A DNA stretch of 64,000 nt, taken from the NCBI GenBank assembly GCA_023053545.1, contig JAKZAN010000005.1:1178001-1242000 (forward strand), in the 5' to 3' direction. Below, piece after piece: positions 9,255 through 49,267 of this stretch. The first letter of the stretch is position 1, and every line of letters starts with the position of its first letter. This DNA is from Lepidurus packardi (lineage: Eukaryota > Arthropoda > Branchiopoda > Notostraca > Triopsidae). The notes below the pieces were generated by a model. That model worked only from the letters and a program-made list of their open reading frames with translations, was not told the origin of the DNA and made no database searches. The position numbers and the translations under genes are program-made.

Positions 9255-10562
9255 AAGCTGGGGCATGATGTTCGCGGTCACCGGGGGTAAGAGAAGGAAA
9301 AAAGGGGGAAGACTATGCAAACAAATAAAGAAATATGTCGCGGCCATACGAATTAGCCGCCGCGCGACTCCAGACATCTTTTAAGAAGAAGACAGCACCC
9401 GTCGGGGAGTCGTCCCTGTCTCGTACGCTGCCTGCATGAGTGCCACCCGACGTTGCCCGGCCTCACCGTAATAGTGGGCCATTTAAAAAGTCTACCCGAC
9501 TCGAAACCTGTGCATTGAACTGACGCCGTTTAGAGCTGGCTTCCCCTTCCCCCACCCCACAACTACGGTCAGCTCGTGCAGAATAGCTGACGAGTTCTGT
9601 TAATGAAGCGAACATAGAAAGTTTCCTACCTGTAAAAAACCCGGCGTGGAAGTTTACACAATCCAATGACGAGAAAACACGGAGAAAATAAAAAAGGAAA
9701 GTGAAAGGAAAGGAGAAGCTACCGTTCAAAGCTCCCAATCAACTGCAAGAGAACCAAAAATATTGCGACTCTTAAAAAATATCCAATACTATAGTCAAGG
9801 TCCCGTAGTAGATGCCACTTATTGCGATCCCTGGTTGCTAGAATCAGCCGTTGCAAAATAAAGAATATGGTCATTTGGTATAGACAAGAAAATGTAATTT
9901 CGTTCTTAATATCACTATTTTCGTGTTTCTTCTTTACATCATAAAACAACCTACGCACATGTACTGTACACATTTCCGATTTTCGGTTATTAGAATCTCC
10001 GCTTAATCAAAGTAATATTCAGTTGACAAACGTGATCACAAAAGGGACATCTACTCTGATGAAAATGGTATCAAAAACACCTGCACTAAAATGGATAAAC
10101 TATATTTTTACTCTTATTTTTAAGCTTACGAATGTTGTTGACAAAGGAGACTTGGCTTCATTAAACCATGCAGGAAACAAAGTCTTTCAAGTCCAGAAAA
10201 ATGGCACCCTATTTAGAAAAATTATGAGTTGTGCTCTTACCATGAAAAAATAGAAATGAAAAAACTCACGTTGATAAAATCAAATCCTTGGTCACTTGAT
10301 CAATCGGTACCAGCATCCAGAATTCCGAAATGGGAAAGAGACTAGTATTGCATTTCCTGAATTTAAAATTAGTATTTTTTTTTACTCGATATTGAGCTTA
10401 TTTTTAACTGACGTGTGTCGTTTAATGAAGCCGGCCACATGGGAAAAAAGGTAGCTGTTGTGTTTTATGCCAAAACAAAATCTTGAGTGCAAACCCGCCA
10501 GATTTGACAAGGAACTCTGCCAGCCCTAAAAATATTTTAATTACAACATGTGTGGATCATAC
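9255..10562. other. Spacer sequence without a recognisable gene
   Basis: From 9255 to about 9700 the sequence is of mixed composition and carries no convincing ORF. From 9700 to 10560 it is AT-rich. A 76-codon ORF at 10023-10253 has no recognisable motif. No LTR or terminal repeat was seen that would explain the missing 5' end of the gypsy copies. Confidence 0.5.
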
Positions 10563-13210: not shown

Positions 13211-13686
13211 GGGTGGATTCCTCCAATTCGTGATAAAGATTCGACCGACAGAATTTAACAGCCAAGATGAAAAAAGAGTGTGAATCAATTAATTCCCAAG
13301 GACGCCTCGGAAACGGGAGCCTACTGCTCCAGAGAAAGTTGACAAAGGCGTGCTTTCTCACAAGTTTGCGTTTATTTCAAACGAACGGGCATGCATTCTC
13401 CCACAGTCCAACATGTTTGCATACCTGGCATGAAAAGGGGGTGCTCATTGCACGTTTTCCCAACTCTGGAGCTGATTGCCGCGATTGGGCCAAAAATCCG
13501 CTCTCCCGCGCTTCATTTCGTCGCTTTCGGACGTCCCGCATCGGAAAGCCGGGCAAGTGCGTAAGAAGCCCGCGTGGGAGCGCCAGCTCGGCAAGGTCGG
13601 TTGAGCGGGTTGAAGGCGTCCGGAGTCAAGTAGAGGGTAGAGGCACCAATGTTAAATGAGGACGCGGTTCAGTCCACTGCCGCTAG

Positions 13687-16600
13687 ATGGCGGGAGGTCC
13701 GAATGTTCCAAATGGTGTTCCAAATGGTTCCAAATGGTGTTCCAAATGGTGTCCAAATGTTCCAAATGTTTCAAATGTTCCAAATGTTCCAATTGGTTCA
13801 GCATACAATCGACATAGGCAACGCTCCACCCATTCACCAAAGGCCATACCGCGTCCCAATATCTCAACATGGCGTAATAGATCAGCACGTCCAAGAAATG
13901 TTAAAAAAAAGAATGTCATTCAACCGTCGAACTCTCCCTGGAGTGCACCCGTTATCCTAGTGAAAAAGAAAGATGGTTCGGAACGGTTCTGCGTAGACTT
14001 CAGGAAGTTAAACAACGGAACTAAAAAAGACGTCTACCCTTTACTTCGCATCGACGACACGCTAGACCTACTTGGAAATGCGAAACTCTTCTCAACATTA
14101 GATTTAGCCAGCGGCTATTGGCAGGTAGAAGTGGCCCCGGAAGATAGGGAAAAAACGGCTTTTTCCACATTCAATGGGCATTACGAATTCCAATGCCTAC
14201 CATTCGGACTAACTAACGCCCCAGCAACGTTCCAACGTTTAATGCAACGCCTATTGCTTCCAATCTGCACAAATTTCGCCATGGTCTATTTGGATGACGT
14301 CATAATATTCTCCAAATCCTTCCAAGACCATATCAGCCACCTTCGTACTGTATTGGGATTATTTTCGAAAGCTGGTTTAAAACTCAAGCAAAAGAAATGC
14401 CATTTCGGGCAACAATCGGTCAAGTACTTGGGTCACCTAGTATCGGTACACGGAGTAGCCCCAGATCCCGAAAAAATTATAGCCGTCCAAAATTTCCCTA
14501 AACCCAGGTGCACCAAAGACGTCCGATCTTTTCTAGGACTCTCAAACTATTGCAGGCGGTTTATAAAAAATTACGCTATTATAGCAAACCCCCTTACTAA
14601 ACTGACGAGCAAAAATAATACATTTCGATGGGATGAACAAACTCACAATGCTTTTTCCACACTCAAACTGGCCCTAACAAAACATCCCGTACTAGCTTAC
14701 CCGGACTTCACGAAACCTTTTACCCTTTTCACCGATGCTTCTAATACAGCACTCGGAGTGGTTCTTGCACAATTCCAGAATAATCGGGAGGTAGTAATCG
14801 CCTACGCCAGCCGTAAGCTCAACCCGGCGGAATCACGCTACGCTACAGTTGAAAGGGAAGCTTTAGCGGTCGTGTTCGCCGTAAAACACTTTCATGCATA
14901 TCTGTACGGACGGAAGTTCGAAGTCGTGACAGACCACAACCCGTTAAAATGGTTAATGGCAAATAAAGATCATACTTCTAAACTTTCACTCTGGGCTTTG
15001 CGGCTACAAGAATACGATTTCACGATCAATCACCGACCTGGTAAGAAACACGGAAATGCTGACGGCTTTTCCCGTACCCCGGTCGCCATAATTACAGACG
15101 AAAATTACTTTACGAAAGCAACTTTTGTCCTAGAACAGCAGAAGGACCCAGCTTGTTCCAAATTGTTGCAACTCTTATCAGGCAATTCGTCCCCAATATT
15201 GCATAAAATGAGCTCACACTGGAAACAAAAATCACACGAATATCTGCTAAACTCTGACGGCATTCTCTGTCGCCTACGGCCCAGCATTCACGATAGTAGA
15301 ATCCTAGTTCCACTCCCAATTGTCCCCGACACTTTACGAACGATCATCCTATCCAGTCTACACGACCACAAAACCGCAGGACATCTGGCCATACAAAAAA
15401 CATATAACAAAATCCTAGCCCGGTACTATTGGGTAGGCCTCTATAGGGACGTAAAGAAGTACATATGGTCCTGCCCATCTTGCAATAAACGCAAATCGCC
15501 TACAAAAACCCTTAGGACTCCATTAATGCCCATGCCTATAGCAGAGCGCCCCTTCGATAGAATCACCGTCGACGTCCTCGGCCCGCTTCCGGGTACACCT
15601 CGGGGAAACAAATACATTATAGTTTTCACACACTATTTAACTAAATGGCCAGAAGCTTACGCCATACCCGACCAAAAAGACGAAACCGTTGCGAAGTTAT
15701 ATTGCGAAGAATGAATTACGAGACACGGAGCACCTCGACACCTCCTATCTGATCAAGGCCCTAATTTTATGGCCGAATTAATAAAAAATATCTGCGCCTT
15801 CCTAAATACCACCAAGCAAAGGACCACACCATACCATCCTCAATGCGACGGCCTCACAGAACGGTTCAATAAAACTTTAGCTGACATGATCTCACATTAT
15901 GTAAATGATACCCATACGGACTGGGACGAACACCTACCGTACCTTCTCCTCGCGTACCGAACCTCAATGCAGTCCTCCACATTAGAATCACCATTCTACC
16001 TGCTTTATGGTAGGGACCCGGCCCTCCCGATAGATTCCATACTGTCACCTAAATCAGCACAGGTACTCTCATACCCTGACTACAAAGAAAAGCTGACATC
16101 TCACCTCCATACTGCATGGACAATCGCACAGTCGCATTTGAAAACAGCGCAAGAAAAGCAAAAACAGTATTATGACAGGACCGCGACCGAACGTCATTTT
16201 CGCGTGGGAGACAAAGTATACATGACGAAGCCCGCAACGAAACCAGGTCTTTCCAGGAAATTGGACTATAGATGGTCTGGTCCTTACCGAATTATTGATA
16301 GACCCTCCCCGGTTACAGCGACACTAATCGACCCCATTTCCTGCAAAAAGCATACAGTACACTTAAACCGATTGAAACAGTGTTGGGAATACGACGGGTG
16401 TAGGGACCCGAAAGCAGGAACACGGGAAGAACCCCGGACAATAAGCCCCATACCGCCCCCACCAACCTCCCCCAAAAGGCCCTCTAGCACTACTATACAT
16501 CATTACACACCATCAAATTCCTCCGACAGCGCCACATATGCGGACATACTTCGCAGTCCTTCAAATCACCACACCCCAATACCAGTTGATAACGACCCTA

Positions 16601-16716
16601 ACCCGCATTTTGTCACCCCAACAGCGTCGCCTAGCCAAGAAACAAGACCCGCTCCAACCTATTCTCTACGAGATAGACGAACGATAAAAAAACCCTCCCG
16701 ATTTCAACCATATTAA
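13687..16716 (+). pseudogene. Ty3/gypsy pol (RT, RNase H, integrase), right arm, broken frame
   Basis: In order: the RT with its YLDD active site (near 14287), RNase H (TDAS, then DHNPLKWL), the integrase zinc finger (HH pair, then CPSC), the integrase core (VDVLGP, SDQGPNF, CDGLTERFN) and a GPY-type C-terminal module. The upstream RT boundary is in another frame, joined at an A8 run near 13900. An in-frame TGA (15712-15714) splits the integrase core; the second part is open from 15769. No gag or protease remains. In an intact element these enzymes copy the RNA and integrate the DNA. Here the breaks make that impossible from this copy alone. Confidence 0.92.
13703..13800. repeat. Minisatellite of TTCCAAATG-type units, right arm
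   Basis: Same array as 9130-9226, in opposite orientation. It sits exactly where the protease-RT junction of a gypsy polyprotein would be, in frame with the RT upstream region. Confidence 0.85.
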
Positions 16717-33101: not shown

Positions 33102-33305
33102 CTGAAGGTAACAAAGATGTCAAAACTTAGAATATTATTATAAGGGCATACATGGCATGAAACAGAGTATCTTATGCGAATGCCTGTTAAATTTGTATGA
33201 CTAAACTTGAGAGTGTACTTGTCAACTGCAGAAATGTACTCGTCCTTCAGGAAGGTAAGGATACGGGTACGAGAAGATTCACCACAGCCAAAACCTGTTT
33301 TTACT

Positions 33306-36300
33306 AATCCTGTAAACTCACCACAACTTTTCTCTAGTGACAATTCCCCACAGGAAAATTCACCACAGATGGCTCCACAGCCAAATCCTGTTTGTACTAA
33401 TCCTGTAAACTCACCACAACTTTTCTCTAGTGACAATTCCCCACACGAAAATTCACCACAGTATGATCATTGAATACTGACATATACCCAAGTGACAATA
33501 CCCAAGTGAAGATGAAAACTTTAACCACTTAATCATAATTAATAATAAATTTGAATACAAACTACAACTCGTTTGAATTTGAACACAACTACAACTTTTA
33601 AAACTCGTTTTCAGGAATGCTCACGTTTAATAATAATACATTTGAATACAAACTACAACTCGTTTTGTGTTACAAACTACTACAACTCGTACAACTACCT
33701 CTACAATTTAACTACAAACTACAATTCGTTTAAATTCGTTTAAACACCCGTTAAGCGAAACTGATTTTCCCATTTAAATCAGTGTAAAACACGATAATGC
33801 GTTCCCTGCGAAATATTTTTTTTAAATGTTTATTCAAATAAAATTACAGGTACATGCTTATAAATCGTTAAAGATCGTAACAACCTGGAAAAAAACATTG
33901 ATTGGAAAAAACAGGATTGCTCTCGTTTTATAATATCGGGCAGGGCGGGGCTAGCGTGGGGAGTGGAGGAAGGCTTTAAGGTGGGTTTCCCACTATGTCA
34001 GTATTCAATGATCATACTGTGGTGAATTTTCGTGTGGGAAATTGTCACTAGAGAAAAGTTGTGGTGAGTTTACAGGATTAGTACAAACAGGATTTGGCTG
34101 TGGTGAATCTTCTAGTCCCCGTAAGGAAGAACAACAGCACTCCTAGGGGCGTAAAACCAAATTCTTAAGACACGATGGTGTCATATTTAATACGGGTATA
34201 CTGTACATATATTCGTAACTAAATCCCATAGAGTAATAATAAATAGAGAGAAAATTAAGGCCTTTCCTTACGGAAAGTTTGTTACCACTTTCGAGAGCCC
34301 CAGGCTAACCCCATGAGAGGAGGAGGTTGGCCAGAACTTCTTGAGACAGCGGGAACTAAGAAAAACGGAGTTGAGCTGTAAATCGATACCAAATGGACTT
34401 GATCGATTTCTTTGCCTTAGCGGAGACCAAGCGGGAAATTTTTAAACATTAATCCGAATTATAACCGGATCATAGCGACCATTTAGAAAATGCACATATT
34501 TATATAATATAACGAGTATGTATAGAATACAAACAAAAAGTCGATACATGAAAAAAAAAGGGGGAGGGGGGTTACAAAAAATGTGTTTTGACATTGCAAG
34601 CATAGGAATTTCCGACATAGGGATACGGAGGATTGATTTTACTCTTTATGTCAATTTTAACATTTCAAACATTTTGTAAACATTTCAAAATTATAAGTGA
34701 GGTAAATTTAAGGATTATACATGTCAGTTTCACTGAATATGGTGCATTTCTTGTTCACCTGCCTTAAAATTCCAGAGTGCGTTTGGCTATTACGGGCGCG
34801 TGCGTAATGGTACAGTCTGGTGTTTAAATATTTTCTTACAACAAGACTAATAAAAAGTCGCCCATGTTTGTCCTGTCCTGACAACTGATTATCATGCTCG
34901 ACAAGTGCTTTTAATATATCTCCCTTTTCTTGGTAATTCTCAAACACGTAACTAACGCTAGGCTCTTCCAGTCTTTCCACTGCTGGAATACTGGTGGGTG
35001 TTGAGGCTAAGATCGTTCGAAAAAAGCGTTCGCATAAACGACAAAGAAAGGGCACTAAGGTGCGTGCACTAAAACTGAAATTATAATATTTGATTAAGCG
35101 CAACGATAAGATCACATTAGTCACATTAGTCCTAAAAAAGTACGTGTTCAATACACCAAGTTCTCAAATTCGTATATACCGCTGCTGGTTGTAATTGATT
35201 CATGTTTATAATATTGTATTGCCATTTGAGAAGTTCTTAGTCAATAAGCTTAACCAACGATATCGATCTGTAATGTACAGCCAATCAGCGACAAGGACTT
35301 GCTTCGCAATCTTACAGCCAATCAGCAGCAAAGACCCCCCTATGCAGTCCTTCCTTTTCGCTGCATTTTGGTGTAACAGACTTCTGACAGGGACCTTAAC
35401 ATTACATACACATTAACATTGACCTTAACATTACATACCATTAAATAACATTGACATACCAAGGAGTAAAATCAATCCTCCGTATCCCTATGTCGGAAAT
35501 TCCTATGCTTGCAATGTCAAAACCCATTTTTTGTAACCCTCCCCCGCCTTTTTTCATGTATCGACTTTTTGTTTCTATTCTATACATACTCGTTATATTA
35601 TATAAATATGTGCATTTTCTAAAGGGTCGCTATGATCCGGATATAGTTCGGATTAATGTTTAAGAATTTCCCGCTTGGTCTCCGCTAAGGCAAAGAAATC
35701 GATAGAAGTCCATTTGGTATCGATTTACAGCTCAACTCCGTTTTCCTTAGTTCCCGCTGTCCCAAGAAGTTCTGGACAACCTCCTCCTCTCATGGGGTTA
35801 GCCTGGGGCTCTCGAAAGTGGTAACAAACTTTCCGTAAGGAAAGGCCTTAATGTTCTCTCTATTTATTATTACTCTATGGGATTTAGTTACGAATATATG
35901 TACAGTATACCCGTATTAAATATGACACCATCGTGTCTTAAGAATTTGGTTTTACGCCCCTAGGAGTGCTGTTGTTCTTCCTTAGGGGGACTAGAAGATT
36001 CACCACAGCCAAATCCTGTTTGTACTAATCCTGTAAACTCACCACAACTTTTCTCTAGTGACAATTTCCCACACGAAAATTCACCACAGTATGATCATTG
36101 AATACTGACATAGTGGGAAACCCACCTTAAAGCCTTCCTCCACTCCCCACGCTAGCCCCGCCCTGCCCGATATTATAAAACGAGAGCAATCCTGTTTTTT
36201 CCAATCAATGTTTTTTTCCAGGTTGTTACGATCTTTAACGATTTATAAGCATGTACCTGTAATTTTATTTGAATAAACATTTAAAAAAAATATTTCGCAG

Positions 36301-36800
36301 GGAACGCATTATCGTGTTTTACACTGATTTAAATGGGAAAATCAGTTTCGCTTAACGGGTGTTTAAACGAATTTAAACGAATTGTAGTTTGTAGTCAAAT
36401 TGTAGAGGTAGTTGTACGAGTTGTAGTAGTTTGTAACACAAAACGAGTTGTAGTTTGTATTCAAATGTATTATTATTAAACGTGAGCATTCCTGAAAACG
36501 AGTTTTAAAAGTTGTAGTTGTGTTCAAATTCAAACGAGTTGTAGTTTGTATTCAAATTTATTATTAATTATGATTAAGTGGTTAAAGTTTTCATCTTCAC
36601 TTGGGTATTGTCACTTGGGTATATGTCAGTATTCAATGATCATACTGTGGTGAATTTTCGTGTGGGGAATTGTCACTAGAGAAAAGTTGTGGTGAGTTTA
36701 CAGGATTAGTACAAACAGGATTTGGCTGTGGAGCCATCTGTGGTGAATTTTCCTGTGGGGAATTGTCACTAGAGAAAAGTTGTGGTGAGTTTACAGGATT
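33306..36800. mobile_element. Foldback-type element with 1.34-kb inverted arms
   Basis: The arms 33306-34644 and 35464-36800 are inverted copies (x pairs with 70106-x, with a 2-bp indel) around an 819-bp loop. Each arm contains an outer block of repeats with the CACCACAGCCAAA and AATCCTGTAAACTC motifs, and a second inverted copy of that block 550 bp further in. The outer end of the right arm coincides to the base with the start of OTU element copy 1 (36801). The left arm's homology continues a little further out, so the right end was cut off. Foldback elements are DNA transposons with long inverted repeats; no transposase is seen. Confidence 0.85.
34708..35151 (-). CDS. Hypothetical 147-codon ORF in the foldback loop
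   Basis: This is the only sizeable frame in the loop of the foldback element. The protein is basic and largely helical, with two cysteines close together (CRLC) and a Tyr/Arg-rich stretch (KYLNTRLYHYARAR). I do not recognise a family. It could be the last piece of a transposase, or an exon of a captured gene. A potential start is at 35151, but no upstream promoter is evident. The position between perfect arms is the main reason to list it. Confidence 0.35.
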   Translation of the reverse strand: MNTYFFRTNVTNVILSLRLIKYYNFSFSARTLVPFLCRLCERFFRTILASTPTSIPAVERLEEPSVSYVFENYQEKGDILKALVEHDNQLSGQDKHGRLFISLVVRKYLNTRLYHYARARNSQTHSGILRQVNKKCTIFSETDMYNP

Positions 36801-36822
36801 CAGTGTTACTATTGGTAGCACT

Positions 36823-37429
36823 ACTCCAAAAGGGTAAGGACTTTTGGTTATAATGTACGGGCGCATACATAAAAGTATGGAAGATAGTGGTGTAGTGGGC
36901 AGAGGCAACTACTGATGCTAGGGTGGAGAGGATTCGATTCTCTTCAAGGGCAGTTTTTTTTCTTGTACTATGGTACAAGAAACTCTTTTTTAACTATTTC
37001 GTTTTAAATTATTCTTTATCTTTAATTATTCTGTATTTCTAATTATTTTAAATTATTATGCATTTAAATTATTATATGTTTTACTGGTTCTGTTGTAAAT
37101 TATGTTCTGTTTAATTATGTGCAATGTTTTTCCTTGTACTATGGTACAAGCACTTCCTTTTCACTTATTATGTTCTACATTATTCTGTATTCTGTGTATT
37201 CTCTATAAATTACTCTTCTGTGCTTTACTGAGCTAATGTGTAAGTGGTACCACCGGAGTTGCGGTGTCGTTATGAGTTTACTCCAAAAGGGTAAGGATTT
37301 TTGGTTATAATGTACGGGCGCATACATAGAAGTATGGAAGATAGTGGTGTAGTGGGCAGAGGCAACTACTGATGCTAGGGTGGAGAGGGTTCTTTTCTCT
37401 TCAAGGGCAGTTTTTTTTCTTGTACCATT
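36823..37429. repeat. Duplicated left subterminal block of the OTU-PHD element, copy 1
   Basis: A block of about 145 bp beginning with the CTCCAAAAGGGTAAGGA motif and ending in T8 occurs at 36823-36967 and again at 37280-37429. It contains TAGTGGTGTAGTGG and GATTCGATTCTC, which resemble the A and B boxes of a tRNA-type Pol III promoter. The T8 could act as a Pol III terminator. The tRNA resemblance is weak and may be chance. The same pair is at 44990-45134 and 45447-45596. Confidence 0.55.
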
Positions 37430-37797
37430 TGACTTTCATGTTTGTCTACTCTCCAAATGTTAACTCCCTGAGGCGCGCTGGTGCTGGTCTCCAACTTGAG
37501 TGTCAAACCGTTCCCCATGACTCATTTTGCTTGCGACTTCCTAAGCTTGCGGTGCCCTTCGCCTTCTACGCTTGCCACGCTTGAATTTTTGCTTCAACCG
37601 CATTATTCCTGTGTTCCGCTTTCTTCCCTTGTTACGTCGGGTACGTTTTCTTATTATTTCTCCTTCATTATTTGCTCTTTTTCTGCATGTTTGCTTGGTT
37701 TTTCTTCCATTGTTTGTTTTGTTTTCACTCCTTTTCGCTTCTTTTTTTCCCGCTTTAGCTTGCTGTCTTGAGTCTAAGACATTAAAAGTAGACAAAA

Positions 37798-39705
37798 ATG
37801 GTTTCTGTTTTAGGCTTCAGAGGGATTGGGAGGCTTCAGAGATTTAGGGAATGTCTAGGAAATTTGCGAAAAACAGCAGATTTACCTGCTGCTGCGTTTT
37901 CTAATATTTCTCTCGAAAAAATCTTGATTAGTCAAGAAAAGTTGAGTAGTTTCGAGACATTGTGTTTGGAGTATAGGGAAGAGTTTAGAGGAATTGAACT
38001 GCCAACTATTTTGGCACTGCCAGAATCTCTGTGCTATGTTGGTAATGATGAATCTGCTTGTGAAATCATTCCAAGTCGCTTCCGTGATGGATTTACTGCT
38101 TTGAAAAGTCAAGGAAATGGGAATTGCTTTTATAATTCAGCTTCGCTGATATTGTTTGGTAATGAAGATCATGCCGATGAGATTCGTTGTCGAATTGTCG
38201 TTGAATTAATGACAAATAGTCAGCTTTATTCAGATCCAGGTCTTGGTTATGTCAGTGACAACCAAATTGCTAACATGGTGAATTTTACTGGCATTTATAT
38301 GACGCGCTTTCTGTTTCCTGGTCTGGAGTTCCCAAACACTGATATCGGGAACGCGCAAAAGACTATAGTTATTTATGCGATGGAGCAGGCAAAGTCAGGG
38401 CAATACGCGTCATTAGTGTCTTTCGCTGCCTTGGCCAATGTTTGTCATAGGACCGTAGAGTCAGTTTATCCAGTTGTTGATGTTCCCTCAAGTAGTACGC
38501 ATCACCCTGCCTTGCATTTCAATATGAATTTTGTCCCTATTGGTTGCAACAGCCCAGAAATTCTCCGAATTTTATGGTGTGGTGGAAACGTGGAAGCACA
38601 TTTGCAGAAGAAAGAAGGGCGGTCAGTTCTTGCGTGTAGTTGGCAGCCGAAACATTTTGTACCACTTTGCCCAAAGGTGGTCAGTTCTAGTCCGTATTCT
38701 GGTCAGTTTGCAGATCGCAGTTTCAAAATTGCAGCTAGTCGCAAAGGTGCTAAATTGTCGAGGACAAAAGGTAAAACAGCAAATAAGTCAGATGAAGTTA
38801 GCGTTATTGATCTGGTCGTTGCTAGACCTGTTGGAGAAATAAAGCAAGAGTCGGACAGTGATTTCGAGAATCCCAACAGTAAAGAAAGGAATACCGAAAC
38901 AAAACGTAAAGGAGATTCTAGTTTGCCTAAACGTAGGTCAGTCAGTGATATTGTCACATGTTCTGTTGATTCTCAAATTGAACAACAACAGAATCAAGCT
39001 GAGTTAAGGTGCAAAAATTGCGATTGCTACGATTTTTATGAAAACTGGTATGTGTGCAAACATATCCACAAAGTTGTACCCGATTTGCCTGACCATTTGC
39101 GGCACTCCCACGTTAAAAATGCAGCTATTGTAGATTGTAAGGAAAGTTATAATAGTCCAAACAAGAGACTAGCCAAGGGAAGAGAAACCCGTTCGGCATT
39201 AGAAAAACGAATCACGGACAACATGGCCTGTGTTGCAAGGTCGCTTCAACGAGGTCTTACTTATCAGCAGCTTTTAGAAATGGATTCTGCTCTGCACAGT
39301 GTAGCTATGATAGGCAAAAGGCCTGATGAAGCCATCATTCAAAAGACATTCCAGTCTGTTATAAAAGTTGGTCCTAATTCCAGGCTCATACCCCAAAGAG
39401 AATTTTATTCAACTCGGAAACCGTACAATAGCAAAGGAGCTGATGTTTATGAAAAGTATGGGTTTGCAGATCCTGGCTCTGTCCTGAGAAGTACGGTTGC
39501 TCAATTCTGTTATTTATGCTTGCAAAGAAATGCTCCTACTAGTGAGTTTGGTGTAGACAATTGGGTTGCTTGTAGTGAATGCGGGACGTGGCATCATGCT
39601 TACTGTGCCAATAAGGTGCAGCCTCATTTAAAGCTTTTAGATTTGTTGCCTGATGATCTAGAAGATTTACTATACCTGTGTCAACCTTGCCTAAAAAAGA
39701 TATAA
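37798..39705 (+). CDS. OTU-like cysteine protease with C-terminal PHD-type finger, copy 1
   Basis: An intronless frame of 635 residues. The OTU-like domain spans about residues 90-295. It has the signature GNGNCFYNSAS with nucleophile Cys110, and PKHFVPL with the probable catalytic His286; the usual Asp in the DGNC motif is Asn here. A basic Ser/Lys-rich linker (about 310-400), probably nuclear, follows. Then come a CKNC...CKH cluster and a C-terminal PHD-type finger (CLQ, CSECGTWHHAYC, CQPC; about residues 575-635). OTU proteases remove ubiquitin or similar proteins, and PHD fingers read histone tails. The combination suggests a chromatin-directed deubiquitinase (inference). OTU-like domains also occur in vertnin-type proteins. 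The start is ATG 37798 after AAAA. Confidence 0.88.
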   Translation: MVSVLGFRGIGRLQRFRECLGNLRKTADLPAAAFSNISLEKILISQEKLSSFETLCLEYREEFRGIELPTILALPESLCYVGNDESACEIIPSRFRDGFTALKSQGNGNCFYNSASLILFGNEDHADEIRCRIVVELMTNSQLYSDPGLGYVSDNQIANMVNFTGIYMTRFLFPGLEFPNTDIGNAQKTIVIYAMEQAKSGQYASLVSFAALANVCHRTVESVYPVVDVPSSSTHHPALHFNMNFVPIGCNSPEILRILWCGGNVEAHLQKKEGRSVLACSWQPKHFVPLCPKVVSSSPYSGQFADRSFKIAASRKGAKLSRTKGKTANKSDEVSVIDLVVARPVGEIKQESDSDFENPNSKERNTETKRKGDSSLPKRRSVSDIVTCSVDSQIEQQQNQAELRCKNCDCYDFYENWYVCKHIHKVVPDLPDHLRHSHVKNAAIVDCKESYNSPNKRLAKGRETRSALEKRITDNMACVARSLQRGLTYQQLLEMDSALHSVAMIGKRPDEAIIQKTFQSVIKVGPNSRLIPQREFYSTRKPYNSKGADVYEKYGFADPGSVLRSTVAQFCYLCLQRNAPTSEFGVDNWVACSECGTWHHAYCANKVQPHLKLLDLLPDDLEDLLYLCQPCLKKI

Positions 39706-40377
39706 GCACCTTTCACTTTTTGTTCTCTTCTTATGTTTTTCGCGTTATTATTATTTGACCTGTTCATATTGGATGTACGAAGAGATGATGTGAAGAAGTA
39801 AAGATGTCAAAGTGAACTTAACAAATTCGTAGCTACGGCCAAACGAAACGTTTTGTTCCAAGAGACATCGGGTTCCAGGGGGACTTCTACATAGGGTGAG
39901 TTTCGACAACTTTTACTCATCTCACGGTAACACTGAGGTCCTCGCCGAGCGTCCGAGTTGTTCCTCAAAGCTCATAAATCTGAAGCGCTTATGACAGGCG
40001 AGGAGCAAACTTGGTAGAAGACCCTTTGCGTTCTATGCCGGTGTTCGTATCTCTGGGAGCAAAAACGTTTTGACTTCCTTGACTCGTCATTTCCCATACT
40101 TTTCAGCAACGACAACTACCACTAGTTTTTCTTTATAAGTCATGCAAAAGTTCATTTAGTTATACTTCTTTATTTCGCTAATGTGAAAACTACGCACATA
40201 AAATTCTATGGGCTGATGCGAGCAAACGATCAAATAACTTTATTACGAAAAAATAAATAAATAAGACAATATAACACCCATGACTATATAGATGTATTGT
40301 ATATCATCGATAAATCAATTCAACTCATTGACAAACAAATACGTTAAACAAATGCAAAACAATCAATTATTTTCATA

Positions 40378-40438
40378 TGACGTCATGTACAGGTTTCTTC
40401 TGCTATGACGTCGCCCGGTTACTTTTCATATGACGTCA
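40378..40438. promoter_or_regulatory. Three CRE-like TGACGTC sites in OTU-PHD copy 1
   Basis: TGACGTCA at 40378 and 40431 and TGACGTCG at 40406, two of them within CATATGACGTCAT. CRE sites bind bZIP factors of the CREB/ATF group. Duplicate sites are at 48545, 48573 and 48598. Confidence 0.5.
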
Positions 40439-40629
40439 TAACGGCTTAAACAGTTGCCAAGGGGGCTCGGCCATGCCAGCTAGAGAAGGCCAACATGTTC
40501 TCCAGTTCCGGAACTATGAGATAGAAATGACACTAGTGTGTATTATTATTTCAAAACGTTCTCGGAGAACGAATGACAAACGGGTGTCACGCGAGTTCAA
40601 AAGTGGTAGTTGGATTGGAAATGCATTAG

Positions 40630-40712
40630 TTTAGGATAGGTTAGTTAGGTTAGGTTAGGTTAGCTTAAGTTTGATTAGGTTACCTTAGGTTAGGTTATAG
40701 GTTACATTAGGT
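40630..40712. repeat. TTAGG telomere-like repeats inside OTU-PHD copy 1
   Basis: About 80 bp of GGTTAGGTTAGG-type sequence with interruptions, also at 48797-48879 in copy 2. It is the opposite orientation to the CCTAA array at 24888-25077, and the adjoining sequence is shared with that locus. Confidence 0.8.
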
Positions 40713-40914
40713 TAACGATTCTCATGAGAGTCGTTAAAACTTGCTCTTTCTTTCACTCCATTAGCTGAAAAAAGACAAATTCATTGTTGGCCAGTGACAC
40801 ACTATAGTGTCATTTTTGACTCGGGGGTACATTACGTACGTATGTACTTAAATCCGGAGAACGTGTTCGAGAGGCAGGCATTTTTCGTATAACATTTGGA
40901 GTAAAACAACCCAT

Positions 40915-41063
40915 GCCGGCTCGAGAGCCATTTTTCGTTACCCTTTTGGAGTTAATTAATCCATGCCGGCTCGAGAGCCATTTTTTGTAATCCTTTTGGA
41001 GTAAAATAATCCATGCCGGCTCGAGAGCCATTTTTTGTTACCCTTTTGGAGTAAAATAATAAG
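40915..41063. repeat. 50-bp tandem repeats at the right end of OTU-PHD copy 1
   Basis: Three 50-bp units each begin GCCGGCTCGAGAGCC and end with the subterminal motif CCTTTTGGAGT. A fourth, degenerate unit precedes them. The same array is at 49082-49230 in copy 2. Confidence 0.9.
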
Positions 41064-41130
41064 CGCCGCCAAGCGGTGAGTGGTACCAATAGATTCATGT
41101 GACTAATGAGAATAAAAAAATACAATTTAC

Positions 41131-41200
41131 CTCCTGCCAACAATGACTTGAGGATAACATTTAAACCCGTTTCTTGACCAGATGTTACAACAGCAGCCAT
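41131..41200 (-). CDS. Orphan first exon, probably of a mitochondrial carrier (SLC25-like)
   Basis: From ATG 41200 the frame encodes 23 residues ending NVILKSLLAGG across a good donor (GTAAAT at 41130). The LKSLLAGG ending matches the start of the first transmembrane repeat of mitochondrial carriers of the SLC25A16/coenzyme-A type, where such an intron position would be plausible. Those carriers move nucleotides or cofactors across the inner membrane. The rest of the gene should lie to the left, but OTU-PHD copy 1 ends 31 bp away and no carrier exon is visible as far as 31.7 kb. The identification rests on few residues. It is probably a disrupted gene. Confidence 0.35.
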
Positions 41201-41617
41201 TACTAAACACTTTCTTTCACTAACCACCACCAAAATGTTCAAAAATCACACTATATTGAGGTCACACAATACACCGCCCCTCTTCTACTAACCAATTACG
41301 AAAGATGTGGGGTTTTGCTTCACCCTGACATCTGGTAGGTCAAAAATTCATTGTTAAAACGAGCGCGGAAGTGAAGCTCTCCTTGAATTAACTTCTTAAT
41401 CCACTGAGATCCATTTTAACCAACCTATTACTAGAATCTTAACTTACTTAACAAAACTCATTGCAGTTAAATACTTGCAATACAATACTTATAAATTTAG
41501 TTACTAACTTCCAACTAAACTAAAGTTCCCAAAATGCAAAAATCTCATTAAAATTCTCTTGTAATGAAGGCACGTAATTTACATAAAAGGACACGAAATG
41601 ACGAGAAAAGGCACTTA

Positions 41618-44600
41618 TTAATACAGGGTCCTTAGGCGATTTACTTCCTCCATTAAACGCTGCAACGTTTCCGCGAGGTTAAACCCATTTTCCAACCGCT
41701 CGTTAATGCCATTAAAATCTCGCTAAAAAAAAATACAAAATAAATACAAAACGAGTATCTCAGAGGTGTCAAATAAAACTTACCTCAGCTATATTGCGGA
41801 CCATTGAGATGTCGAAAGTAACCCTGTGAAGTAGATCCCTAATGTCGCTTCTGGTCACCCTCAAAGTTTCGCTGACTTCTTCATGCCTCTCTCGCATTTC
41901 TTGATTGAATTCCTGGAATTCCTTGTAAAACGCCGCGAAGTTTTCGGAAACTTTTGGGAAAGTGGTATCTGTCTTGGCGGGGGGCGCGGCTTGGGGTAGA
42001 TTGGCAGCTGAGCCACGAGATCTATTGAAACCGAAGGAAAGCTTGGCATTGGAGGTGGAAGGTACAATAGCAAAGGCGCTGGAATTAGAAGAGTTTAAGT
42101 TCGTGGCAGCATTCGGCTTGTTCCGTTCCAATCGATCGGGTGAAGGAGAACGTGAAATGCCTTTGGACTGACTGGCATTGAAGCTGTTCTTCAAGGAAGG
42201 TCGCGCTGAAGGAGCTGGAATGGATTTGACAGGTACTTTGGACACGCTGGACGTTTCTGAGGCGTTTTGGATTGGTAAAAAGGTGGAAGAAGTCGGTTCT
42301 GGCTCAACGAAAAGGGGCCGGTTACCTTGGCTAAGTGATCGGCGTGCAGATTTAGGTTCTTCTTGTGATTCATTCGTTGGAGTGGGCTTGCGGCTGGTAG
42401 GACGGGCTAAACGGGACGTAAATTTGAGAGGGACATTCAATAAAGATTCCGTTTGGATCGCAGGAGAAGGAGAACGAGAAGGAGCTTTTGGCGGGGGTTG
42501 AGGCACACGCGGCAAGGAAGATGTGGAATGATACGCCTTCAGCTTCGAAGTGGCCAGTGATCGAGGGATGACGTCATTGGGCTGGAAGTAGACCTTCAGA
42601 AGAGGGGAGCCTTGTGCTTGTTTGTATTCCGTTAGTTGTTTGGTCCTGAGATCCAAAGCGAAGACTTGACCTTGACAAGTGCCCACGATGACGATGTTGC
42701 CGTCTTCGCCAGTATCAATGCAGGTCAACGGTTGTGAGAAGGTTCGATTTAGTATAATCCTAGATTGATTTGAATACAAACAGAAACTCATTATCAATAA
42801 ATAATATTCAATATAAATGTCTATTTTTATTTAACTATAACAACGCCCTTTTGAAAAAAATAGATCAAAATAAATAAAATTCAAACAAATAAATAATAGT
42901 CAATTTAAATAGATACTTTTATTGAAATTAAACGTTACCTTTTCTCTGATATGTCGTAACCAATCAACTCCTTGTCCAATCCAACGCTGAACATCACTTT
43001 GGCGTTGACTCGTGAAAAGGCAATGCCGACACATGGTGCTTTGTGTCCTCCGTTCTTGTAATCGAAGGAAAACCGAGGCTGACGCGTGCCATTCAGATCC
43101 CATAAGGCGACGGTTCCGGTATCATACGCTGCGCCAAGTCGACTGGTTCTCAGATGTCCAAACCGAAGGTCTCCCAACAACTATTAGATGAAAAACATCC
43201 ATAAATAACTTGAAAATTCTATATGAATCAAAAACTTTTTTAAAAATGTAAGTTTTCATAAGTTAATATAAGTTTTATTAAGTAAATACTACACTAATGG
43301 AAGGAATGGTTGCTTACAGCAGAACTGCCAGCCGGACAAGGTAATTGGGTTAACTGTTGGCCGGTTTGGTGTCCAAAGATGTTGACGATGTTGCCGTCTT
43401 CGCCAGTATCAATGCAGGTCAACGGTTGTGAGAAGGTTCGATTTAGTATAATCCTAGATTGATTTGAATACAAACAGAAACTCATTATCAATAAATAATA
43501 TTCAATATAAATGTCTATTTTTATTTAACTATAACAACGCCCTTTTGAAAAAAATAGATCAAAATAAATAAAATTCAAACAAATAAATAATAGTCAATTT
43601 AAATAGATACTTTTATTGAAATTAAACGTTACCTTTTCTCTGATATGTCGTAACCAATCAACTCCTTGTCCAATCCAACGCTGAACATCACTTTGGCGTT
43701 GACTCGTGAAAAGGAAATGCCGACACATGGTGCTTTGTGTCCTCCGTTCTTGTAATCGAAGGAAAACCGAGGCTGACGCGTGCCATTCAGATCCCATAAG
43801 GCGACGGTTCCGGTATCATACGCTGCGCCAAGTCGACTGGTTCTCAGATGTCCAAACCGAAGGTCTCCCAACAACTATTAGATGAAAAACATCCATAAAT
43901 AACTTGAAAATTCTATATGAATCAAAAACTTTTTTAAAAATGTAAGTTTTCATAAGTTAATATAAGTTTTATTAAGTAAATACTACACTAATGGAAGGAA
44001 TGGTTGCTTACAGCAGAACTGCCAGCCGGACAAGGTAATTGGGTTAACTGTTGGCCGGTTTGGTGTCCAAAGATGGAGATCATGCCATTCGTCTGTCCAC
44101 TTGCTACCGATGTACCGTTGGAGTGGACTTTCCTCACACCTTCTCGGCGAGTCTGATAAGAATAATGTGAGAGTTTGGACGGAAGATAACAATGGTTTAA
44201 GCTTACAACGGCGAAGTTTTGTTGGATTTTGCTCTTCGCGCAATCCCAGACGTAAACGCTTCCGTTCGCCTGACCAAGGGCAACTCGATCTGTCTGTTTG
44301 GGCACAAAGGAGACGCAAGTCGCAGGAGTATAAAAGGAAACCTTGTTATATGCAAGCAGATATAAAGTTTAATTTGATAAGCACGTACTGGAAGAATGCT
44401 GGCTGGACGAACAGTCAAGTTCTCTACGTCGATTAACTGCAGATGCGACTCGTTCTCAAGCGTGGCTGCTATGAGCTTTCCATTGGAACTACATGACACG
44501 TCTGTGATTGAACCTATTGTACAAAAGAGAAGAAATGGTATTAGTATGAACTGTAACGTACGTCTAAGGATGCAATGCAATAGCTTACCATGTAAACCGA

Positions 44601-44685
44601 AATTCTTCAAGATGTTGTTGTTTTTGCGGTCCCATATTGAAACATTCTTCGCAGTGCAGGCAACAAAGATGTTTGAACTTGCCAT
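41618..44685 (-). CDS. NEDD1: NEDD1, gamma-tubulin ring targeting WD40 protein
   Basis: Exons: 44685-44589, 44513-44389, 44341-44207, 44152-44012, 43874-43633, 43453-43318, 43180-42939, 42759-41784 and 41722-41618. All have GT-AG sites and phases fit throughout. The N-terminal half is a WD40 propeller (VYVWDC, TVALWDLN, IGYDI). A Ser/Pro-rich linker follows, then a C-terminal helix ending in TLQRLMEEVNRLRTLY. NEDD1 recruits the gamma-tubulin ring complex to centrosomes and spindles through that C-terminal region. With all exons the protein is 732 residues. Without the duplicated part it would be 606, nearer the usual 600-680. The duplication adds 126 residues of propeller sequence. OTU-PHD copy 2 begins 282 bp upstream of the start codon. 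Confidence 0.92.
42689..44075. repeat. Tandem duplication of about 693 bp inside NEDD1
   Basis: 42689-43381 is repeated at 43383-44075, with one extra T (43382) at the junction. At least one substitution separates the copies (C at 43021, A at 43715; Ala versus Ser). The duplicated unit contains a complete exon (242 bp) and the two half-exons around it, which become fused into a new 136-bp exon at 43318-43453. Confidence 0.93.
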
Positions 44686-44967
44686 GGTCTCTATTGGGCA
44701 TGTGTACGTATAGAGAGAACGATTTCTTCTTTCCCCAACAATGAAACTCAAACTGGACACTGCAGAGTCTGGAACTGGTATTTATATTGTATATAGACAA
44801 AAGAAAAGCTCCTGAATCGAGTTTGAACACTATAAAAAAGTTTTGTACAAACCAGGAAAAGTTTTGCACAAACCAGGAAAGAAAGAAGTTTTCTTACACA
44901 AAACAATAAACCGTAAACGAAACTTTTTTCGTTTCTCGTGAGGTTCAAATTTTGACGCATGCTCAAA

Positions 44968-47900
44968 CAGTGTTACTATTGGTAGCACTACTCCAAAAGG
45001 GTAAGGACTTTTGGTTATAATGTACGGGCGCATACATAAAAGTATGGAAGATAGTGGTGTAGTGGGCAGAGGCAACTACTGATGCTAGGGTGGAGAGGAT
45101 TCGATTCTCTTCAAGGGCAGTTTTTTTTCTTGTACTATGGTACAAGAAACTCTTTTTTAACTATTTCGTTTTAAATTATTCTTTATCTTTAATTATTCTG
45201 TATTTCTAATTATTTTAAATTATTATGCATTTAAATTATTATATGTTTTACTGGTTCTGTTGTAAATTATGTTCTGTTTAATTATGTGCAATGTTTTTCC
45301 TTGTACTATGGTACAAGCACTTCCTTTTCACTTATTATGTTCTACATTATTCTGTATTCTGTGTATTCTCTATAAATTACTCTTCTGTGCTTTACTGAGC
45401 TAATGTGTAAGTGGTACCACCGGAGTTGCGGTGTCGTTATGAGTTTACTCCAAAAGGGTAAGGATTTTTGGTTATAATGTACGGGCGCATACATAGAAGT
45501 ATGGAAGATAGTGGTGTAGTGGGCAGAGGCAACTACTGATGCTAGGGTGGAGAGGGTTCTTTTCTCTTCAAGGGCAGTTTTTTTTCTTGTACCATTTGAC
45601 TTTCATGTTTGTCTACTCTCCAAATGTTAACTCCCTGAGGCGCGCTGGTGCTGGTCTCCAACTTGAGTGTCAAACCGTTCCCCATGACTCATTTTGCTTG
45701 CGACTTCCTAAGCTTGCGGTGCCCTTCGCCTTCTACGCTTGCCACGCTTGAATTTTTGCTTCAACCGCATTATTCCTGTGTTCCGCTTTCTTCCCTTGTT
45801 ACGTCGGGTACGTTTTCTTATTATTTCTCCTTCATTATTTGCTCTTTTTCTGCATGTTTGCTTGGTTTTTCTTCCATTGTTTGTTTTGTTTTCACTCCTT
45901 TTCGCTTCTTTTTTTCCCGCTTTAGCTTGCTGTCTTGAGTCTAAGACATTAAAAGTAGACAAAAATGGTTTCTGTTTTAGGCTTCAGAGGGATTGGGAGG
46001 CTTCAGAGATTTAGGGAATGTCTAGGAAATTTGCGAAAAACAGCAGATTTACCTGCTGCTGCGTTTTCTAATATTTCTCTCGAAAAAATCTTGATTAGTC
46101 AAGAAAAGTTGAGTAGTTTCGAGACATTGTGTTTGGAGTATAGGGAAGAGTTTAGAGGAATTGAACTGCCAACTATTTTGGCACTGCCAGAATCTCTGTG
46201 CTATGTTGGTAATGATGAATCTGCTTGTGAAATCATTCCAAGTCGCTTCCGTGATGGATTTACTGCTTTGAAAAGTCAAGGAAATGGGAATTGCTTTTAT
46301 AATTCAGCTTCGCTGATATTGTTTGGTAATGAAGATCATGCCGATGAGATTCGTTGTCGAATTGTCGTTGAATTAATGACAAATAGTCAGCTTTATTCAG
46401 ATCCAGGTCTTGGTTATGTCAGTGACAACCAAATTGCTAACATGGTGAATTTTACTGGCATTTATATGACGCGCTTTCTGTTTCCTGGTCTGGAGTTCCC
46501 AAACACTGATATCGGGAACGCGCAAAAGACTATAGTTATTTATGCGATGGAGCAGGCAAAGTCAGGGCAATACGCGTCATTAGTGTCTTTCGCTGCCTTG
46601 GCCAATGTTTGTCATAGGACCGTAGAGTCAGTTTATCCAGTTGTTGATGTTCCCTCAAGTAGTACGCATCACCCTGCCTTGCATTTCAATATGAATTTTG
46701 TCCCTATTGGTTGCAACAGCCCAGAAATTCTCCGAATTTTATGGTGTGGTGGAAACGTGGAAGCACATTTGCAGAAGAAAGAAGGGCGGTCAGTTCTTGC
46801 GTGTAGTTGGCAGCCGAAACATTTTGTACCACTTTGCCCAAAGGTGGTCAGTTCTAGTCCGTATTCTGGTCAGTTTGCAGATCGCAGTTTCAAAATTGCA
46901 GCTAGTCGCAAAGGTGCTAAATTGTCGAGGACAAAAGGTAAAACAGCAAATAAGTCAGATGAAGTTAGCGTTATTGATCTGGTCGTTGCTAGACCTGTTG
47001 GAGAAATAAAGCAAGAGTCGGACAGTGATTTCGAGAATCCCAACAGTAAAGAAAGGAATACCGAAACAAAACGTAAAGGAGATTCTAGTTTGCCTAAACG
47101 TAGGTCAGTCAGTGATATTGTCACATGTTCTGTTGATTCTCAAATTGAACAACAACAGAATCAAGCTGAGTTAAGGTGCAAAAATTGCGATTGCTACGAT
47201 TTTTATGAAAACTGGTATGTGTGCAAACATATCCACAAAGTTGTACCCGATTTGCCTGACCATTTGCGGCACTCCCACGTTAAAAATGCAGCTATTGTAG
47301 ATTGTAAGGAAAGTTATAATAGTCCAAACAAGAGACTAGCCAAGGGAAGAGAAACCCGTTCGGCATTAGAAAAACGAATCACGGACAACATGGCCTGTGT
47401 TGCAAGGTCGCTTCAACGAGGTCTTACTTATCAGCAGCTTTTAGAAATGGATTCTGCTCTGCACAGTGTAGCTATGATAGGCAAAAGGCCTGATGAAGCC
47501 ATCATTCAAAAGACATTCCAGTCTGTTATAAAAGTTGGTCCTAATTCCAGGCTCATACCCCAAAGAGAATTTTATTCAACTCGGAAACCGTACAATAGCA
47601 AAGGAGCTGATGTTTATGAAAAGTATGGGTTTGCAGATCCTGGCTCTGTCCTGAGAAGTACGGTTGCTCAATTCTGTTATTTATGCTTGCAAAGAAATGC
47701 TCCTACTAGTGAGTTTGGTGTAGACAATTGGGTTGCTTGTAGTGAATGCGGGACGTGGCATCATGCTTACTGTGCCAATAAGGTGCAGCCTCATTTAAAG
47801 CTTTTAGATTTGTTGCCTGATGATCTAGAAGATTTACTATACCTGTGTCAACCTTGCCTAAAAAAGATATAAGCACCTTTCACTTTTTGTTCTCTTCTTA

Positions 47901-49267
47901 TGTTTTTCGCGTTATTATTATTTGACCTGTTCATATTGGATGTACGAAGAGATGATGTGAAGAAGTAAAGATGTCAAAGTGAACTTAACAAATTCGTAGC
48001 TACGGCCAAACGAAACGTTTTGTTCCAAGAGACATCGGGTTCCAGGGGGACTTCTACATAGGGTGAGTTTCGACAACTTTTACTCATCTCACGGTAACAC
48101 TGAGGTCCTCGCCGAGCGTCCGAGTTGTTCCTCAAAGCTCATAAATCTGAAGCGCTTATGACAGGCGAGGAGCAAACTTGGTAGAAGACCCTTTGCGTTC
48201 TATGCCGGTGTTCGTATCTCTGGGAGCAAAAACGTTTTGACTTCCTTGACTCGTCATTTCCCATACTTTTCAGCAACGACAACTACCACTAGTTTTTCTT
48301 TATAAGTCATGCAAAAGTTCATTTAGTTATACTTCTTTATTTCGCTAATGTGAAAACTACGCACATAAAATTCTATGGGCTGATGCGAGCAAACGATCAA
48401 ATAACTTTATTACGAAAAAATAAATAAATAAGACAATATAACACCCATGACTATATAGATGTATTGTATATCATCGATAAATCAATTCAACTCATTGACA
48501 AACAAATACGTTAAACAAATGCAAAACAATCAATTATTTTCATATGACGTCATGTACAGGTTTCTTCTGCTATGACGTCGCCCGGTTACTTTTCATATGA
48601 CGTCATAACGGCTTAAACAGTTGCCAAGGGGGCTCGGCCATGCCAGCTAGAGAAGGCCAACATGTTCTCCAGTTCCGGAACTATGAGATAGAAATGACAC
48701 TAGTGTGTATTATTATTTCAAAACGTTCTCGGAGAACGAATGACAAACGGGTGTCACGCGAGTTCAAAAGTGGTAGTTGGATTGGAAATGCATTAGTTTA
48801 GGATAGGTTAGTTAGGTTAGGTTAGGTTAGCTTAAGTTTGATTAGGTTACCTTAGGTTAGGTTATAGGTTACATTAGGTTAACGATTCTCATGAGAGTCG
48901 TTAAAACTTGCTCTTTCTTTCACTCCATTAGCTGAAAAAAGACAAATTCATTGTTGGCCAGTGACACACTATAGTGTCATTTTTGACTCGGGGGTACATT
49001 ACGTACGTATGTACTTAAATCCGGAGAACGTGTTCGAGAGGCAGGCATTTTTCGTATAACATTTGGAGTAAAACAACCCATGCCGGCTCGAGAGCCATTT
49101 TTCGTTACCCTTTTGGAGTTAATTAATCCATGCCGGCTCGAGAGCCATTTTTTGTAATCCTTTTGGAGTAAAATAATCCATGCCGGCTCGAGAGCCATTT
49201 TTTGTTACCCTTTTGGAGTAAAATAATAAGCGCCGCCAAGCGGTGAGTGGTACCAATAGATTCATGT
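44968..49267 (+). mobile_element. OTU-PHD element, copy 2 (4300 bp)
   Basis: Same 4300-bp unit as 36801-41100, in the same orientation, with identical ends (CAGTGTTAC... and ...GATTCATGT). The flanks differ on both sides, so this is not a simple tandem duplication of a larger segment. It separates NEDD1 from whatever lay upstream. The left flank is NEDD1 5' sequence and the right flank (from 49268) is unrelated to that of copy 1. Confidence 0.85.
45965..47872 (+). CDS. OTU-like cysteine protease with C-terminal PHD-type finger, copy 2
   Basis: The 635-residue translation is identical to the one at 37798-39705, including Cys110, His286 and the C-terminal Cys/His finger. An undamaged frame in both copies implies very recent duplication. 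Mutation would be expected to break one copy quickly if neither were used. The surrounding host genes have introns; this one has none. The upstream 1 kb is the element's own left end, so both copies should carry the same promoter. Confidence 0.88.
   Translation: MVSVLGFRGIGRLQRFRECLGNLRKTADLPAAAFSNISLEKILISQEKLSSFETLCLEYREEFRGIELPTILALPESLCYVGNDESACEIIPSRFRDGFTALKSQGNGNCFYNSASLILFGNEDHADEIRCRIVVELMTNSQLYSDPGLGYVSDNQIANMVNFTGIYMTRFLFPGLEFPNTDIGNAQKTIVIYAMEQAKSGQYASLVSFAALANVCHRTVESVYPVVDVPSSSTHHPALHFNMNFVPIGCNSPEILRILWCGGNVEAHLQKKEGRSVLACSWQPKHFVPLCPKVVSSSPYSGQFADRSFKIAASRKGAKLSRTKGKTANKSDEVSVIDLVVARPVGEIKQESDSDFENPNSKERNTETKRKGDSSLPKRRSVSDIVTCSVDSQIEQQQNQAELRCKNCDCYDFYENWYVCKHIHKVVPDLPDHLRHSHVKNAAIVDCKESYNSPNKRLAKGRETRSALEKRITDNMACVARSLQRGLTYQQLLEMDSALHSVAMIGKRPDEAIIQKTFQSVIKVGPNSRLIPQREFYSTRKPYNSKGADVYEKYGFADPGSVLRSTVAQFCYLCLQRNAPTSEFGVDNWVACSECGTWHHAYCANKVQPHLKLLDLLPDDLEDLLYLCQPCLKKI

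Follow-up and report, generated by a model that had tools for sequence, protein, structure and literature searches.

An OTU-fold element repeated in the tadpole shrimp Lepidurus packardi is very probably an internally deleted Mutator-like transposon

Two copies of one element lie on the forward strand of a Lepidurus packardi contig, within the 64,000-nucleotide stretch analysed here (the window; JAKZAN010000005.1, positions 1,178,001 to 1,242,000). Comparison of the window with itself showed that W1 (36801-41100) and W2 (44968-49267) are 100% identical over exactly 4300 bp at an offset of 8167 bp and that their flanks differ, as a sequence-only reading of this DNA had claimed. The element runs from CAGTG to CATGT, and comparison of its ends confirmed the imperfect terminal inverted repeat, of about 14 nt, with CTATTGGTAGCACT at the left terminus (36801-36822, forward strand) and CTATTGGTACCACT, in reverse complement, at the right (41079-41100, reverse strand). 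A motif described as standing twice on the left and three times inverted on the right, ACTCCAAAAGGGTAA, occurs exactly in W1 at 36823 and 37280 on the forward strand and at 40938 and 41038 on the reverse strand; the third right-hand site, at 40988 (reverse strand), is degenerate with 2 mismatches. Both window copies together contain 10 matches, against 0.28 expected from shuffles. Each left motif falls within a repeated unit of ~150 nt, and a repeat and motif search placed the inverted ones in a right subterminal array of 50-bp repeats (40876-41060, reverse strand).

The single ORF of W1 (37798-39705, forward strand) is open over 635 codons and is repeated unchanged in W2 (45965-47872), which bears out its description as undamaged. 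Sequence and structure modelling support an OTU fold in its N-terminal part, at residues 84-300 (38047-38697, forward strand). The OTU structure model (pLDDT 73, pTM 0.77) was searched with Foldseek, leaving out an earlier model with a pLDDT of 43.5, and the 50 matches listed of 183 are OTU proteins (best E = 1.8e-6, query TM 0.37-0.48), which we take to be VCPIP1. Lower matches of one OTU search included the unrelated proteins Toxin B, Cas12i2 and a structural polyprotein, and these were taken as chance. Seven of 8 members gave a PF02338 match, with E values up to 1; the window sequence reached only E = 0.13. At the other end of the protein, a Cys/His cluster (39508-39699, forward strand) is a probable PHD-type finger: the Pfam PHD match is below cutoff (E = 4.2), and the best solved-structure matches are PHD fingers, with E = 0.0026-0.08 for the whole sequence and weaker values for single stretches.

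Full-length relatives in the same 108.6-Mb genome, here called MULE-A or family A, have the same ends as the window copies and encode a 1354-aa ORF. Its middle, of about 719 residues, contains a pair of C2H2 fingers together with a MULE transposase in which the D/D/E and CxxH residues are present. PF10551, the MULE transposase, was found above cutoff in one of them (L041, E = 9.3e-11), and the residues D826, D888, E1010, C911 and H914 do not vary among two families from this genome and three outside relatives. The copy L043 measures 7718 bp, has both ends, a 9-bp target duplication and the 1354-aa ORF, and its protein reads, in order, N-terminal OTU-fold domain, two C2H2 fingers, Cys/His-rich region, MULE DDE core, SWIM-type motif and PHD-like finger. 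The SWIM-type CxC...CxH motif, read by eye and retained in the window ORF (39019-39069, forward strand), keeps C1127, C1139 and H1141 unchanged among 5 sequences, whereas its second Cys varies; Pfam gave no SWIM match. Used entire as a query against proteins, the 1354-aa sequence returned one weak match, and its transposase region returned three relatives, whose listed domains do not include OTU. A five-protein profile search recovered at least 8 proteins among the best 7999 candidates scored, of which P0007 and P0008 carry PF02338 and P0006 and P0012 are zinc-finger matches. P0007, which aligns to the MULE-A OTU, also carries PF14214, presumably a Helitron domain.

Set against this protein, the window ORF consists of codons 1 to about 408 joined in frame to codons 1126-1354. 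Its residues 1 to ~410 and 406-635 match separate parts of the 1354-codon open frames at three loci, and W1 and W2 are the sole pair among 70 protein matches to cover residues 1-635 without a break. The deletion junction, read by eye at 39013-39019 (forward strand), shows a 2-bp AA overlap; the deletion is 2157 bp, in frame, and removes about 719 codons, which encode the C2H2 fingers, the MULE core and the region that precedes it. In keeping with the loss of the core codons, the 635-aa ORF gave no Pfam match to PF10551. The fusion of an OTU protease to a PHD finger noted earlier is thus the product of this deletion, its OTU fold upheld and its PHD finger probable. Another derivative, L046, also carries an in-frame deletion, and the frame kept in both may weakly hint at a retained coding function, since each deletion would preserve it by chance one time in three.

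We examined target duplications in the 11 both-ended copies, leaving out one-ended ones. Exact 9-bp duplications flank six (L043, L046, L048, L050, L051 and L049/L077), within the 8-11 bp range set for Mutator-like elements; none was found at W1, W2, L041, L047 or L053. L046, L050 and L051 are further deletion derivatives, each with its 9-bp duplication, and family-A copies differ by only a handful of substitutions; all-pairs sums from that comparison, which take in poorly aligned partial frames, were set aside. The full-length MULE relatives and the 9-bp duplications lead us to identify the element, with a probability of about 0.94, as a non-autonomous, in-frame internal-deletion derivative of the Mutator-like DNA transposon MULE-A. 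The sequence-only reading of a mobile-looking, non-autonomous element is sustained. Its other option, an unconventional element lacking a conventional transposase system, is ruled out by the 1354-aa relatives with PF10551: the ends belong to a known superfamily, and the transposase resides in full-length copies elsewhere, an outcome that the reading had itself named as speaking against it.

When gap repair that follows an excision is interrupted, it can leave a deletion with a short overlap such as this one, and such an event would have stripped the fingers and catalytic core from a complete 7.7-kb form like L043, leaving the OTU joined in frame to SWIM-PHD. Because the ends and subterminal motif arrays are kept, the window copy could probably still be moved in trans by the transposase of intact copies, and the leftover OTU-SWIM-PHD protein would have no needed role in transposition. 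We also considered, by analogy, that the truncated protein represses its own family by competing for transposase subunits or end motifs, as internally deleted P elements do for theirs. The retained SWIM and PHD-like parts might allow mixed complexes, but the C2H2 fingers and Cys/His-rich region, the likely DNA-binding parts, are deleted, and we regard repression as highly improbable.

The arrangement of the two window copies is a separate matter. The absence of a target duplication at either one leaves their own transposition putative and counts against the deletion-derivative reading. Between them lies a gene segment (41101-44967), which we take to be WD40-type. It has a 97-99% paralogue (C3:11532412-11536075), and the resemblance of that paralogue to the window breaks off within one base of both element junctions. 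The flanks of W1 and W2 may have been swapped by recombination or misassembly. The W1-gene-W2 pairing would be explained if assembly had gone wrong at the identical 4.3-kb repeats, the element itself being real, and we give such an artefact a little under an even chance. The 100% identity of the copies fits it, as does the absence of any matching pair among the four 9-bp flanks. Three paralogues of the intervening gene share sequence beyond the left junction of W2, where the window instead passes into W2 and then an unrelated repeat. A like split is seen at the copy L054: the partners of its left flank, AGGCTATAG, are right ends that lie on contig C5. Recombination between dispersed copies, for instance circle excision and re-integration, would however give a similar pattern.

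What the OTU might do can be approached through its conservation. An N-terminal OTU is common to two MULE families in this genome, and one of them (family B) has an OTU-only form of 386 aa at 15 places on 3 contigs. Cys110 and His286 are conserved in 7 of 7 aligned sequences, and both residues are kept across four families at about 40-70% identity; adding three outside proteins left the Cys invariant in 8 of 8, with the His block absent from P0008. The Asp of the DGNC loop has a role in OTU cysteine proteases. It is present in families B and C and replaced by Asn in families A and D, P0008, P0009 and P0011, and any deubiquitinase activity is for that reason only putative; the window ORF possibly encodes a ubiquitin-removing enzyme. 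We think it rather unlikely that the OTU is a trans-supplied cargo whose putative deubiquitinase shields the transposase, or acts against silencing or repair by the host, favouring copies that retain it. Such a role is consistent with the conserved Cys and His, with the dN/dS of 0.49 measured for L056 against L057 across the 307 N-terminal codons, which take in the OTU, and with more than one origin of OTU-retaining derivatives, namely the window copies and L046 in family A and the 386-aa form in family B. Yet L050 and L051 of family A lost the OTU, so no retention bias is evident; the family-B places are near-identical, 11 of the 15 share a contig, and they may have arisen by segmental duplication; and dN/dS values within family B scatter from 0.14 to 2.0 on few substitutions.

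The left end of MULE-A has a further peculiarity. Pol III type 2 promoters have an A box and a B box at tRNA-like spacing and a T-run terminator, and the left-end repeat fits this layout, although both window units are without an intact B box: unit 1 (36822-36971, forward strand) carries the ACTCCAAAAGGGTAA motif, an A box, a degenerate B box (GGATTCGATTC) and a T8 run, and unit 2 (37279-37428, forward strand) the same with a broken B box (GGTTCTTTTC). After matches under about 90 nt were dropped, 30 units were kept, some being the same DNA in overlapping loci; of the 24 distinct units, which share descent so that the counts are not independent, 20 have an A box, 22 a strict B box and all 24 a T-run, and the A-to-B distance is 43 nt in all 18 having both boxes. 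A true tRNA gene was rejected, as ARAGORN found no tRNA and Rfam gave matches below gathering score only (part of a tmRNA T-arm, covering one B box, at 11.1 bits, and a tRNA match beside the units on the opposite strand at 20.5 bits). Fold z-scores were 0.21, -0.47 and -0.39. A SINE inserted in the ends was rejected because 34 of 37 genome matches of the unit, assigned by coordinates in a search that skips very common words, sit within MULE-A copies already known. Of the remaining matches, one is on contig C16, where the nearest MULE-A copy noted is ~10 kb away, and two are at 5.84 Mb on C5. The literature searched yielded nothing relevant on a MULE with Pol III elements. On an improbable, speculative view, this would be an animal MULE lineage with an OTU inside its transposase, OTU-only derivatives serving as amplified trans helpers, and left-end Pol III modules recruiting TFIIIC/Pol III for end accessibility or a short RNA. 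If true, the transposon would itself encode a system for open chromatin at its end.

MULE-A shares with animal Mutator-like elements the MULE DDE core with D/D/E and CxxH, a candidate SWIM-type motif, 9-bp duplications and internal-deletion derivatives; it adds an N-terminal OTU, C2H2 fingers and a PHD-like end in one protein, and Pol III-type boxes in the repeated units of its left ends. The claim that no described family has this content is weakened, since an OTU in a MULE is already on record: Table 1 of PMC6446971 lists the Hydra element MuDR-6_HM (group 14) with 'Ovarian Tumour Gene', a likeness drawn from that entry. Rehavkus resembles MULE-A in its 9-bp duplication, in a PHD finger within the transposase, which is probable in MULE-A, and in a minisatellite before the 3' inverted repeat; its description there makes no mention of an OTU (PMC6446971). 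Ginger1 transposases are described as fusions with an OTU or an Ulp1 domain, in one case together with PHD, and a ubiquitin/SUMO role in transposition has been proposed; unlike MULE-A, Ginger1 has a Gypsy-integrase-type DDE, a C-terminal OTU and a CCGG/CCGT target duplication (PMC2836005). KI-MULEs and Vandal VANC-KIU pair a ubiquitin-like protease with a MULE, and VANC binds arrays of short motifs, but these accounts concern plants, the protease is Ulp1 rather than OTU and a separate gene, and anti-silencing by VANC is demonstrated (PMC13317346, PMC2528002, PMC5735166). Helitrons and Helentrons are animal transposons with OTU or VTD deubiquitinases, in contrast using a rolling-circle mechanism and another enzyme (PMC9741609, PMC6431247). 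An anti-silencing or protective role has been proposed for Ulp1-bearing Vandals and Helitron deubiquitinases. According to PMC9741609, the OTU domains of transposons had yet to be assayed for catalytic activity.

The element itself is ordinary, a deletion derivative, and it is the parent family that is unusual. Deubiquitinases recur in several unrelated transposon groups, and MULE-A offers a good opportunity to ask what they do. The same 108.6-Mb genome contains intact copies that are nearly identical, derivatives without the OTU or with nothing else, and a related family, which makes the role of the OTU testable by comparison.

The two element copies at 36801-41100 (W1) and 44968-49267 (W2) were found to be identical over 4300 bp with unlike flanks and to end in short imperfect inverted repeats, as the sequence-only reading had held, and each carries the 635-codon ORF. 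The array of the end motif ACTCCAAAAGGGTAA described for them stands at two left copies and three right copies per element, one of the right copies having two mismatches, and the motif count is far in excess of shuffled expectation. Near the right end, 40751-40870 shares 84-89% identity with many dispersed places outside the parent family (family A, MULE-A) and is probably an older nested short repeat.

Our six-frame search of the 108.6-Mb assembly (344 contigs, with the window at C4:1178001-1242000) revealed at least 70 matches to the 635-aa protein, scoring being limited to the best candidates: 33 at ≥82% identity and 37 at 41-43%. Among these 70, only W1 and W2 span the protein uninterrupted; at the other sites, residues 1 to ~410 and 406-635 have their matches in separate places. 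At three loci (L041, L042 and L043) both parts lie inside a single open frame of 1354 codons. In translation, the middle of this frame shows a pair of C2H2 fingers together with a MULE transposase domain (PF10551, above cutoff at E = 9.3e-11). An alignment of family A with a second family of the same genome and three outside relatives shows no variation at D826, D888, E1010 or the CxxH pair C911/H914. Compared with L041, the window ORF retains codons 1 to ~408 plus 1126 to the end, the middle ~719 codons having been lost in frame at a junction with a 2-bp AA overlap. The "OTU fused to PHD" gene of the sequence-only reading is therefore a deletion product joining codons ~408 and 1126.

Pfam alone did not call an OTU domain in the 635-aa or the 1354-aa protein. 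When four families and three outside proteins were combined in a profile, viral OTU, A20 and OTUD1 were its best solved-structure matches (best E = 8.5e-4), and PF02338 matched in 7 of 8 members, with the window sequence weak at E = 0.13. Profile comparison with two outside PF02338 proteins gave E = 8e-15 (P0008) and 1.5e-12 (P0007). When the predicted model of residues 84-300 (pLDDT 73, pTM 0.77) was searched with Foldseek, OTU proteins, VCPIP1 counted among them, held all of the best 50 of 183 ranks, at modest query TM-scores of 0.37-0.48. Cys110 and His286 do not vary among the 7 sequences aligned. The usual aspartate of DGNC is replaced by asparagine in the window OTU and several relatives, so the domain is described as a putative deubiquitinase. 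The PHD call is based on weak matches.

The second OTU-MULE family (family B) includes L056, whose 1418-aa ORF combines an OTU domain with fingers and a MULE core, and an OTU-only derivative of 386 aa (L055). Of the 40 places that match the junction region of this derivative, 15 do so over its full length (11 on C20, a 249-kb contig, two on C21 and two on C6), and 14 of these are identical. In family A, the OTU was kept in the window copies and L046 whereas it was lost in L050 and L051, so no retention bias toward the OTU is visible in these derivatives. In the N-terminal region, dN/dS between L056 and another locus, L057, was 0.49; values within family B ran from 0.14 to 2.0, from few changes, and comparisons with family A were saturated.

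Family A copies have CAGTG...CATGT termini in common, apart from two observed exceptions: in L042 other sequence replaces the left end, and L054 starts with TAGTG. Exact 9-bp direct repeats flank 6 of the 11 both-ended copies, namely L043 (a complete copy with full ORF), L046, L048, L050, L051 and an 11-kb copy whose two ends are L049 and L077; no target duplication was found at the other both-ended copies checked, W1, W2, L041, L047 and L053. In L048, part of the coding region is inverted relative to the remainder. The 9-bp left flank of L054, on contig C2, is paired with right ends on C5 (L071, L072), so flank exchange has occurred, in family A or in its assembly. Two end subfamilies (L041, L043, L049, L050 and L051 versus the window, L047 and L048) lie ~17% apart upstream of the A box described below, while the coding parts of both are ~97-100% identical to L041, which suggests that ends may have been exchanged between them.

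Between W1 and W2 lies a 3.87-kb gene segment with a paralogue on C3 (97-99% identical); the match between this paralogue and the window ends within one base of both element junctions. Because three paralogues (L061, L067 and L068) continue alike for 27-48 bp beyond the left junction of W2, at which the window passes into W2 instead, this junction is a true insertion point. To the right of W2 lies a different repeat, matched almost in full at 17 places, the window's own included, and the W1 left flank is a repeat as well. This arrangement fits recombination among copies, and it fits misassembly. The segment itself (41101-44967) holds a WD40-type gene, which we take to be NEDD1-like, and sequence related to it occurs at four more places in the genome; a 694-bp tandem duplication inside the window copy is absent from the C3 copy. 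A large foldback at 33262-36800 (1095-nt arms, 99% complementary, with a 93-bp internal repeat) ends exactly at the W1 left boundary, and pieces related to it are dispersed in the genome and also adjoin further copies of the WD40-type gene. Farther left, 1332-16716 has Gypsy-type pol ORFs at both ends and, inside, an ORF for a non-LTR-type reverse transcriptase along with further mobile-looking ORFs, all labelled by eye.

A left-end unit of ~150 nt gave 30 hits, 24 of them distinct, in the window and at 16 loci. We found an A box in 20/24 units, a strict B box in 22/24 and a spacing of 43 nt in all 18 units with both; a T-run occurs in all 24, lying 11-15 nt past the B box in the 22 where this is strict. 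The combination was absent from randomised sequence (40 x 64 kb). Between the end subfamilies, the A box has 0/12 differences, the B box 1/11 and the stretch between them 3/31, versus 11/66 upstream. In the window copies the B box is broken in both units, which leaves the 64-kb window with no instance of the strict combination. No tRNA fold was found in these units, Rfam returned sub-threshold matches only (one of them a partial T-arm covering a B box), and the family B loci L055 and L056 showed no such unit. The units are candidate Pol III promoters and nothing beyond.

The Hydra element MuDR-6_HM is listed with an ovarian-tumour motif, and MULE target duplications measure 8-11 bp (PMC6446971). 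Ginger1 transposases carry OTU, Ulp1 and PHD, for which a repair role has been suggested (PMC2836005), Ulp1 occurs in plant MULEs, where VANC anti-silencing acts via tandem motifs (PMC13317346, PMC2528002, PMC5735166), and Helitrons with OTU are known, transposon OTUs being described as untested (PMC9741609). Given this context, we class the window element as a deletion derivative that belongs to a variant form of a transposon type already known.
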